NCBI RefSeq assembly: GCF_002441695.1
Contig: NZ_JXJW01000010.1
Coordinates: 1-64,000 of the forward strand
Length of the DNA: 64,000 bases
From: Pseudolactococcus piscium
GTDB taxonomy: Bacteria > Bacillota > Bacilli > Lactobacillales > Streptococcaceae
Direction: 5' to 3'
A program made the position numbers and the translations under genes. A model generated the notes under the pieces. It was not told the origin of the DNA. It made no database searches and was given only the letters and a program-made list of their open reading frames with translations. Positions 34,080 to 42,745 of the stretch are shown one piece after another; the first letter of the stretch is position 1; each line of letters opens with the position of its first letter.

Positions 34080-34100
34080 CTATTATGCATTGCACAATAG
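34080..34100. promoter_or_regulatory. PadR operator candidate 1
   Basis: A 21-bp imperfect dyad with outer arms CTATT and AATAG and inner TGCA/TGCA. It resembles the second dyad 12 nt downstream in its CTATTA/TAATAG arms. Confidence 0.5.
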
Positions 34101-34112
34101 CAAAATATATGA

Positions 34113-34137
34113 TACTATTACGTTATACATAATAGTA
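34113..34137. promoter_or_regulatory. PadR operator candidate 2
   Basis: TACTATTA (34113-34120) and TAATAGTA (34130-34137) are perfect 8-bp inverted copies 9 bp apart, directly before the AAAGGATG ribosome-binding sequence. Autorepression by PadR is the obvious inference. Confidence 0.6.
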
Positions 34138-34152
34138 AAGGATGTGTGAAAA

Positions 34153-34476
34153 ATAGACTATATAAATGAAAGTCAACTGCGAAAAGGCATAGTTGAGGGG
34201 TTTTTACTAATGATTATTGGTCAATCTGATGATCTCTATGGATATGAAATTTCAAACAAGTTTAGTAGCTTTGGCCTCAAAGACGTCTCAATGGGAACAA
34301 TTTATCCTATACTAACAAAGTTTGAAAAAAACGACTGGGTCACAACAGAAGTCAGAAAATCTGATGAGGGACCAAGTCGAAAATATTATACACTCTCTCC
34401 TAATGGTAGATTGGCACAAGTAGATTTTAGTGACCGATTTAATAAGTTTATTGATATTTTTGAAAGTTTGAGGTAA
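34153..34476 (+). CDS. PadR family transcriptional regulator with unusual start
   Basis: A winged-helix regulator. From the first ATG (34210) only 88 aa are made and the first helix is lost. The same frame is open upstream and encodes KIDYINESQLRKGIVEGFLL, the typical PadR N-terminus, back to a TGA at 34147. That stretch has no ATG, GTG or TTG. An ATA codon at 34153 lies about 10 nt after AAAGGATG and gives 107 aa, the normal PadR length. The winged part shows YGYEISNKF and GTIYPILTKFE. It is coupled to the DUF1129-like gene 3 nt downstream. Confidence 0.75.
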   Translation: MDYINESQLRKGIVEGFLLMIIGQSDDLYGYEISNKFSSFGLKDVSMGTIYPILTKFEKNDWVTTEVRKSDEGPSRKYYTLSPNGRLAQVDFSDRFNKFIDIFESLR

Positions 34477-34479
34477 GAA

Positions 34480-35160
34480 ATGGCAAGTCAGCAATACACG
34501 AACCTACTAAGTACAGAGACCCGTTCTGTAATAAAAGCATTGTCTAAGAACAACCAATTATTTGTCACTGATTTTTTATTGACGATGACTGGTGATATCT
34601 TGTTAAAAGATGAGACGATTGTCCAATTAAAATTAGCTGAAGTGATCAACGATATCGCTCAGGCTGAAAAAGATGGCTATACTGCCCAAATGCTCTTAGG
34701 AACTGACCCTAAAAAAGTCGCAAAAGCTATTTTAGCCGCTATGCCAAACAAAAAAATAGGGACGCTTATCAAAGAAAATTTGACACTATTTTGTATCACC
34801 TTAATTTTTGTGATTTTCCTATCTAGTATTGGCATACATAACATAAATGGGATTGATAAAGCATATTTTTCAATTATATCTGCACTCCTGACACCCTTAA
34901 TAATCGCTTGCCTCATTTTTATCGCTTTAAAACTAATCAATTTTTCCGCATTTAAGAGTCGTTTAATCAAAGGATTATGTCTTTTTATTTGTACATTTGG
35001 GATAGTTTACTTATCATCTTTTCTTTTTAGCAGACCAATATACTGGTTAAGTTTTGAAGTGCCTCTTATTTTGGAAACAGGTCAACTTATCGCCGTACTA
35101 CTCTACTTGATTAGTCTAGTCTATTATTTTTGGATCGTTAACAAACAACAAAAAGTCTAA
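34480..35160 (+). CDS. DUF1129-like membrane protein, PadR partner
   Basis: A 226-aa protein with a soluble helical N-terminus (1-100; contains YTAQMLLGTDPKKVAKAIL, like the DUF1129/HAAS type domain) and four or five hydrophobic segments after residue 100. PadR genes are commonly paired with such proteins; the pair may sense envelope stress. The start is 3 nt after the padR stop with GAGG overlapping it. The function is unknown. Confidence 0.7.
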   Translation: MASQQYTNLLSTETRSVIKALSKNNQLFVTDFLLTMTGDILLKDETIVQLKLAEVINDIAQAEKDGYTAQMLLGTDPKKVAKAILAAMPNKKIGTLIKENLTLFCITLIFVIFLSSIGIHNINGIDKAYFSIISALLTPLIIACLIFIALKLINFSAFKSRLIKGLCLFICTFGIVYLSSFLFSRPIYWLSFEVPLILETGQLIAVLLYLISLVYYFWIVNKQQKV

Positions 35161-41347: not shown

Positions 41348-42706
41348 CTAGCAAAGACCTTCTATAAGTGCTGATAGCTTCATGGAGTTACTTCCCTTTA
41401 GCAAGAGTTGATCTTGAGGCGCTAAGGTGTTTAACAAGTCTTTGAGAAGTTCATCTAAGTCATCTGTTTCATTATCTTTTCGGAAATATTTGATAGCATC
41501 AGGTTCAAATACAGTCTTGGCAGCTGATGCAAGTGGTTCGATTTCTTCACCATAAAGATAAAGTAAATCTAGTTTTTGAGGATCCAGTGCTGTTATCATC
41601 TGAGCATGGAGTTGCGGTGATTGCTCACCTAACTCTTTCATGTCAGCCAGGACAGCGATTTTTTTGCCATCAGGATTACGATCTATTGTTTGAAATGTTT
41701 CTAGTATTAAGCGCATGGCAGTCGGATTGGCATTATAGACATCTGATAAGATATCCGCGCCATTTGAGGATTTGAGCCACTCAACCCGGTTTTTAGTGAG
41801 ACTCAAATCTGCTAATGCCCGCTTGATGTTCTCTGGGCTTACACCCTCTAACATCCCGATGTAAGCTGCAACCATGGCGTTGGTCGCATTAAATTTACCA
41901 GGAATCGGGATCATTAGCTGTTCATCCAGAAAATTCACCGTAAACCGTAAGGCATCTTTATACTCGTACAAGTCAACAATATGGATATCTGAATCCGCGC
42001 CAAAGCGTGTAATTTTCTGATTTTCAGGTAAGTAAGCATTAATGATTTTATCTGCTGGGGCAATCAACTCCCCACCAGGGACTAATCCGTCAACAATCTG
42101 TAGCTTACCTTCTGCGATTTTATCTCGTGTGCCGAAAAATTCGAGATGACTTTCCCCAATTAAGGTAATAACAGCCAGTTTAGGTTTTGCTAAGGTCGAT
42201 AAGAGATGGATATCTCCCATATGGTCCTGTCCCATTTCTAGGACAAGCTTCTGCGTGCCTTCTGGCATATGAAGAACAGTGTAAGGCAAACCGATTTGGT
42301 TATTATAATTTCCTTGGGTTTTATACGTTTTGTAGGTTGTCTCAAGGATTTGTGCCGCCATGTCTTTAGTTGTTGTTTTACCATTACTCCCGGTAATCGC
42401 AATCACATCGACTTTTGTTTTCTCTAAATAATAGGCTGCCAATACTTGAAATGCTTGTTCAGTATTCGTAACGAGTATGTGAGGAAAGGCAACTTTTTTC
42501 TCAGAGAGTGTCACAACAGCTCCCTTATCAAAGGCTGTTGGGATAAACTCATGGCCATCGCGTGCACCTTTTAACGGCAAGAAAATGTCTCCGTCTTGGA
42601 TTAACCGGCTATCAAATTCAATATTTTTTAGTATAAGGTTAGGATAAGCAGAAAGGTCATTTTGTGCGCTAACGACACGTGCAAGTTCATGTAAGGTTAA
42701 ATTCAT
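41348..42706 (-). CDS. murF: UDP-N-acetylmuramoyl-tripeptide--D-alanyl-D-alanine ligase
   Basis: Adds D-Ala-D-Ala to the peptidoglycan precursor in the cytoplasm. The ATP loop is TGSNGKTTTKD (Lys110), followed by the Mur-ligase central domain (LEMGQDHMGDI, GESHLEF) and the C-terminal domain starting at KNRVEWL...DVYNANPTAM. The length of 452 aa is normal. It is separated here from ddl, its usual neighbour in streptococci, by about 6.4 kb. The Shine-Dalgarno sequence is weak (CAGG). Confidence 0.96.
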   Translation of the reverse strand: MNLTLHELARVVSAQNDLSAYPNLILKNIEFDSRLIQDGDIFLPLKGARDGHEFIPTAFDKGAVVTLSEKKVAFPHILVTNTEQAFQVLAAYYLEKTKVDVIAITGSNGKTTTKDMAAQILETTYKTYKTQGNYNNQIGLPYTVLHMPEGTQKLVLEMGQDHMGDIHLLSTLAKPKLAVITLIGESHLEFFGTRDKIAEGKLQIVDGLVPGGELIAPADKIINAYLPENQKITRFGADSDIHIVDLYEYKDALRFTVNFLDEQLMIPIPGKFNATNAMVAAYIGMLEGVSPENIKRALADLSLTKNRVEWLKSSNGADILSDVYNANPTAMRLILETFQTIDRNPDGKKIAVLADMKELGEQSPQLHAQMITALDPQKLDLLYLYGEEIEPLASAAKTVFEPDAIKYFRKDNETDDLDELLKDLLNTLAPQDQLLLKGSNSMKLSALIEGLC

Positions 42707-42736
42707 TGGGTTACCTGATTCTTTTTCATATCTTAT

Positions 42737-42745
42737 ATTTTAGCA
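42737..42745 (-). promoter_or_regulatory. murF promoter, extended -10
   Basis: TGCTAAAAT on the minus strand about 30 nt before the murF start, so murF is independent of the interrupted cluster. Confidence 0.5.

Follow-up and report, generated by a model that had tools for sequence, protein, structure and literature searches.

A probable AUA start codon in a conserved PadR-family regulator gene of Pseudolactococcus piscium

Translation of a PadR-family regulator gene (padR, here PadR-A) of Pseudolactococcus piscium probably starts at an AUA codon, at position 34153 of the 64,000-nt stretch of DNA analysed here (the window), where a Shine–Dalgarno (SD) sequence would assist a weak start that would keep a probably autoregulated repressor scarce. 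The gene has no canonical start codon able to give its conserved N-terminus, an AUH codon (AUA, AUU or AUC) is kept at a constant distance from the SD across species, the codons upstream of the first in-frame ATG are under purifying selection, and a second PadR gene (PadR-B) also has an AUH codon at its start position.

The PadR frame is open from 34150 to 34476 and is bounded upstream by an in-frame TGA (34147–34149). After AAA 34150 and ATA 34153, it contains no ATG, GTG or TTG before ATG 34210, confirming the original prediction of a frame with only an ATA at the expected start, and the predicted spacing of about 10 nt from the SD also holds, with AAAGGA at 34137–34142 lying 10 nt upstream of the ATA (Table 1). 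The product carries the PadR winged-helix domain (PF03551; E = 3e-19, 69.2 bits against a cut-off of 27). Its predicted fold (mean pLDDT 88.5) comprises helices at residues 6–22, 30–39 and 47–59, strands at 63–70 and 73–81 and a last helix at 83–106, placing the 107-aa protein in the small PadR-s2 type (about 110 aa, single C-terminal helix). In NCBIfam, no above-cut-off match was found for PadR-A, PadR-B or the downstream gene product. The SD region is overlapped by the in-frame GTG 34144 and by two out-of-frame codons, ATG 34142 and GTG 34146. In the window and in the nearest species, G003, GTG 34144 does not serve as the start because a TGA or a TAA follows directly, and both lack a canonical start that could give the conserved N-terminus.

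Table 1 Coordinates of the padR region and of the second PadR gene with an AUH codon. Positions refer to the window except for PadR-B.
Feature	Position	Strand	Evidence or remark
Second copy of the palindrome motif, CTATTATG-CATTG-CACAATAG	34080..34100		7/8 arm positions pair
Near-perfect palindrome TACTATTACGT-TAT-ACATAATAGTA, candidate operator just upstream of the SD	34113..34137		11-nt arms, 91% complementary
SD region AAAGGATGTG (AAAGGAAGTG in three relatives), one mismatch to the complement of the 16S 3′ end	34137..34146	+	Duplex −10.7 kcal/mol
In-frame GTG within the SD, stop TGA directly after (G003: GTG-TAA)	34144..34149	+	Sequence
ATA, proposed start codon	34153..34155	+	ATA/ATA/ATC/ATC/ATC across five species
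PadR-family regulator, 107 aa from the ATA, with stop	34153..34476	+	Pfam PF03551; predicted fold
Earliest canonical start of the PadR frame, Met20 of the full protein	34210..34212	+	A start there drops helix 1 residues 6–19
Downstream membrane-type protein, 3 nt past the padR stop	34480..35160	+	Homologue beside padR in G003, G005 and G008
PadR-B (L136), ATC at the start codon	G000:C73, about 92219–92539	−	Relatives have ATG or GTG

Close matches to PadR-A occur in 5 of 12 genomes of the genus, window included, and the gene was compared in four related species: G003 (95% identical), L. laudensis (G005), L. chungangensis (G008) and L. hodotermopsidis (G006). None of these four relatives has ATG at the codon equivalent to 34153. 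The ATA is not a sequencing error, since the independent genome of the nearest species, G003, shares it and the three further species have ATC. This pattern, together with the purifying selection on the codons that would have been dropped, also speaks against the second option of the original prediction, the loss of a helix through a recent mutation of ATG to ATA. In all five species the AUH stands at a fixed distance from AAAGGA-(A/T)-GTG; L. hodotermopsidis has 7 extra nucleotides between palindrome and SD, yet its SD–AUH distance is unchanged. Codons −2 and −1 vary among the five (stop/stop/V/V/S and K/K/I/I/K, respectively), and codons 0–18 are conserved, bearing out the prediction of a conserved PadR N-terminus upstream of ATG 34210: variation across codons 1–18 is nearly all synonymous. 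Specifically, 11 of these 18 codons, which follow the ATA, are variable, ten of them synonymously only and one by a D/N change, and the variable sites fall 3/0/8 on the three codon positions (binomial P = 0.009). With the SD distance constant, the codons before the AUH free to vary and the GTG stopped, AUA 34153 is therefore the best start candidate here.

Selection acts on the gene as a whole, with a dN/dS of 0.067 against G003 (16 synonymous and 5 non-synonymous changes) and of 0.075 against L. laudensis, a comparison in which synonymous sites are saturated. Against L. laudensis, 19 of 19 residues match upstream of the first canonical start of the PadR frame, a longer stretch than in any other of the 24 window ORFs with a hit in the fetched part of that genome; one further ORF flagged, 41348–42739 (8/11), is murF, whose ATG is ordinary and whose leader is conserved. 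The same comparison against G003 flagged 20 of 60 ORFs and was uninformative because the two genomes are too close. The frame is intact in four of the five species. In the L. hodotermopsidis copy (L033, around 2700), deletion of a single base past about codon 70 disrupts the frame; this copy may be a pseudogene or reflect an assembly error.

The second gene follows a similar pattern. G000, the genome to which the window belongs, contains three PadR genes over the Pfam cut-off, and the copy on C12 starts at ATG. The proposed start codon of PadR-B is ATC in G000 and G003 and ATT in G001 and G009 (4/4 species); in genus g5 of the same family, the corresponding codon is canonical in all 26 loci fetched (ATG in 23, GTG in 3), these coming from the best 30 of 132 matching genomes. 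PadR-A and PadR-B form separate clades, each fully supported. The AUH label changes four times on the tree and its well-supported branches force at least two of these changes, for a tree built on few columns, with several long branches and with the Listeria-type group described below left out.

Several other explanations of the missing canonical start have to be weighed. One is the use of another near-cognate codon of the same frame, chiefly ATA 34162, which is our second choice after ATA 34153 and which we consider improbable. It is ATA 34162, not 34153, that aligns with the ATG of most PadR homologues (codon 5), and this codon too reads ATA/ATA/ATC/ATC/ATC in the five species. However, it lies 19 nt past AAAGGA with no SD of its own, and codons 0–2 are conserved as well, with one D/N change. 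Moreover, the L. laudensis ribosome-binding site of PadR-A, GAAGTGGTCATTATC, is nearly identical to that of PadR-B, GAGGTGATCATTATC, so that the two starts share one register and the PadR-B start falls level with 34153.

A start at ATG 34210 would yield a protein without most of helix 1. This codon is the first canonical start of the frame and is itself conserved in all five species, but no SD-like sequence was seen before it, and the nearly exclusive synonymous variation of the codons upstream shows that these are translated. Such a start, at Met20, would be destructive, because helix 1 spans residues 6–22 of the predicted fold and 14 of its 17 residues would be removed; in solved PadR-s2 proteins, helix 1 contacts the last helix of the dimer-mate (PMC3506622). 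PadR proteins with solved structures align from residues 5–7 onward. On coding conservation and predicted fold we reject a start at ATG 34210 as highly improbable. No better are the chances that padR is decaying in this lineage and makes no functional protein. The lack of a canonical start, the frameshifted L. hodotermopsidis copy and an SD weaker in the window and G003 than in the relatives would all fit decay; the low dN/dS between the window and G003 and the frame kept intact in four of the five species do not.

We give very little credence to a ribosomal frameshift, or transcriptional slippage, on an A run that would link the out-of-frame ATG 34142 to the PadR frame. The window and G003 both retain ATG-TGT-(G/A)AA-AAA-TAG over the A run, and a single shift would join the frames. 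However, no separate SD serves ATG 34142, which itself overlaps the SD, both the ATG and the A run are missing in L. laudensis and L. chungangensis, and the ATG is also missing in L. hodotermopsidis. Least probable of all is a start at the in-frame GTG of the SD, with the AUH as an ordinary isoleucine codon, the relatives then having an ordinary GTG start and the window needing read-through of a stop at codon 2: all 13 loci from three PadR groups do carry a GTG in frame, exactly 9 nt upstream of the AUH, and loss of an ATG would be tolerated wherever such a GTG exists, but the GTG is followed by stops of two kinds (TGA in the window, TAA in G003), is part of the SD with no second SD upstream, is separated from the AUH by codons that are not conserved and is missing in frame from two AUH candidates, L101 and L147. 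Of the 15 AUH candidates, 11 have a GTG in frame within the SD that competes as a start, and a stop excludes it only in the window and G003. Our confidence in the AUH reading is therefore firm for the window and weaker for the rest; outside the window and G003, that GTG could be the start.

The strength of the SD differs among these genes. The 16S 3′ end, GGATCACCTCCTTTCT, is present in the genome, and the SD duplexes of G003 and the three other PadR-A genes have energies of −9.7, −16.0, −16.0 and −15.8 kcal/mol; those of PadR-B are −17.2, −17.2, −13.8 and −13.7, and that of infC −8.9. The median of control duplexes is −8.55 for 46 window genes, kept from 60 ORFs after 14 had been dropped beforehand (padR itself and rows that appeared to be short, to lie antisense or to lack a clear start). 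In seven of nine AUH PadR genes, the SD duplex is stronger than those of all 46 controls. The window's own SD is not exceptional, with 9 of the 46 controls at least as strong; 13 are at least as strong as that of G003 padR. The PadR-B SD at L136, GAGGTGATC, is a perfect complement of the 16S 3′ end.

Further candidates come from a survey of 199 distinct PadR loci, a non-random sample made up of best matches, genus members and 60 regions drawn mainly by rank. Within 10 codons of the anchor, the canonical start lying nearest was ATG in 135, GTG in 29 and TTG in 25, with none in 10. At twelve codons, nine rows lacked a canonical start, and four of these are real candidates: L001, L002, L101 and L147. 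The last two have ATC at the start position and no nearby in-frame canonical start, L147 (G029:C24) belonging to another genus of the family and L101 to a Bacilli MAG. The remaining rows were discarded, L013, L051, L134 and L186 having been wrongly anchored, with canonical starts present, and L070 read in a shifted frame. A Listeria-type PadR group (family f7; L239, L250, L263 and L264) shows the pattern GG(A/G)GGTG-6 nt-AT(C/T) in its start region. Among the four loci fetched, three carry ATC or ATT, and their sole in-frame canonical codon is a GTG in the SD, apart from one locus with an additional TTG upstream of that GTG; the fourth has TTG directly before ATT. Generalizing from these loci, AUH starts may have arisen repeatedly and been selected among autoregulated PadR repressors of the Lactobacillales, at least twice separately in Lactococcus_A and probably also in Listeria-type and further genomes. 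Such genes would form a class of IF3-sensitive repressors, with starts that gene finders would miss by choosing the GTG in frame within the SD or an ATG farther downstream. We offer this wider claim tentatively, as one that falls somewhat short of probable.

To our knowledge, very few bacterial genes start at AUA, AUU or AUC, and those that have been studied are kept low on purpose. The E. coli gene for IF3, infC, starts at AUU. Like padR, infC keeps a near-cognate start across species; unlike padR, for which the sequence suggests transcriptional autoregulation only and control by IF3 is proposed by analogy, infC is autoregulated at translation by IF3. All eight infC loci fetched from the genus read AAGGAGAACAATCATAGC, as does L167, without a canonical start between the SD and the coding region, whereas an in-frame ATG stands at that place in three of four loci from other families. 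Judging from these letters, the infC start in the genus would be AUC or AUA, either codon lying in AAGGAGAACAATCATAGC. Besides padR, the genus thus appears to have at least one gene that begins with AUC or AUA, in agreement with the infC starts already known.

The closest precedents are in Staphylococcus aureus, for which PMC13009471 describes ribosome profiling that places AUA starts at ccpN and infC and an AUU start at cvfC1, with extended SDs, and reporters in which near-cognate starts give about 10% of the AUG output, and up to 30% for ccpN in rich medium. As portrayed there, ccpN (AUA) and cvfC1 (AUU) resemble padR in encoding a repressor and a possible regulator, respectively, and in combining a conserved AUH start and, for seven of the nine AUH PadR genes, a strong SD with initiation that would be low. 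They belong to other protein families, their starts were mapped and the weakness of those starts was measured, whereas both are deduced from sequence for padR, and the SD of the window padR is not exceptionally strong. Streptomyces sigR, which starts at GTC and is repressed by IF3 (PMC5472188), likewise is a regulator gene held low by a non-canonical start; it differs in encoding a sigma factor, in its codon and in that IF3 repression was shown experimentally. Literature searches that covered few subscription journals, and papers in part, returned no report of a PadR gene with an unusual start codon. AUA- and AUU-started repressors with extended SDs are already known, and padR would add to them a member from the PadR family.

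At AUA 34153, the start that we favour, the SD region AAAGGATGTG, whose end lies 6 nt upstream, would position the 30S subunit, the weak codon–anticodon match would lower initiation, and the start may, by analogy with infC and sigR, be sensitive to IF3. A weak start combined with palindromes over the gene's own leader would keep an autoregulated repressor scarce. The AUA start that had originally been proposed to keep the repressor scarce is now better supported than its mutational alternative; the scarcity itself we infer. If this reading is true, AUH starts in two PadR paralogues would tie the amount of repressor to the condition of the initiation machinery. Annotation would err systematically at such genes, where the true start has a start-like GTG before it, in the SD, and an ATG after it.

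The case for autoregulation comes from the leader, the neighbouring genes and kin. A palindrome as good as the candidate operator arose in only a few of 200 shuffles of the leader (1 for the window, 4 for G003, 2 for L. laudensis and 1 for L. chungangensis), with the best palindrome of L. chungangensis at the site equivalent to 34080–34100; the L. hodotermopsidis leader palindrome is unremarkable, matched in 148 of 200 shuffles. No sigma-70-type promoter consensus was found on the + strand. In G003, L. laudensis and L. chungangensis, as in the window, padR follows a LysM protein gene and precedes the gene for the membrane-type protein, and the membrane-type gene is probably in the same operon as padR and a likely target; its product scores 22.7 bits against Pfam DUF1129, below the cut-off of 29.1. 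LmrR of Lactococcus is an autoregulated PadR-s2 repressor of the same family and size as the padR product. The Listeria proteins LftR, LltR and LstR also share this family and size, and the accessible part of PMC6624303 presents several such PadR-s2 repressors as repressing their own genes and, in that part, mentions no unusual start codon. With the palindromes, the kept gene order and these autoregulated kin taken together, padR is likely to be autoregulated. Three weak matches to the downstream gene, 34480–35160, lie close together in the L. hodotermopsidis region (L141), perhaps representing a family of such genes.
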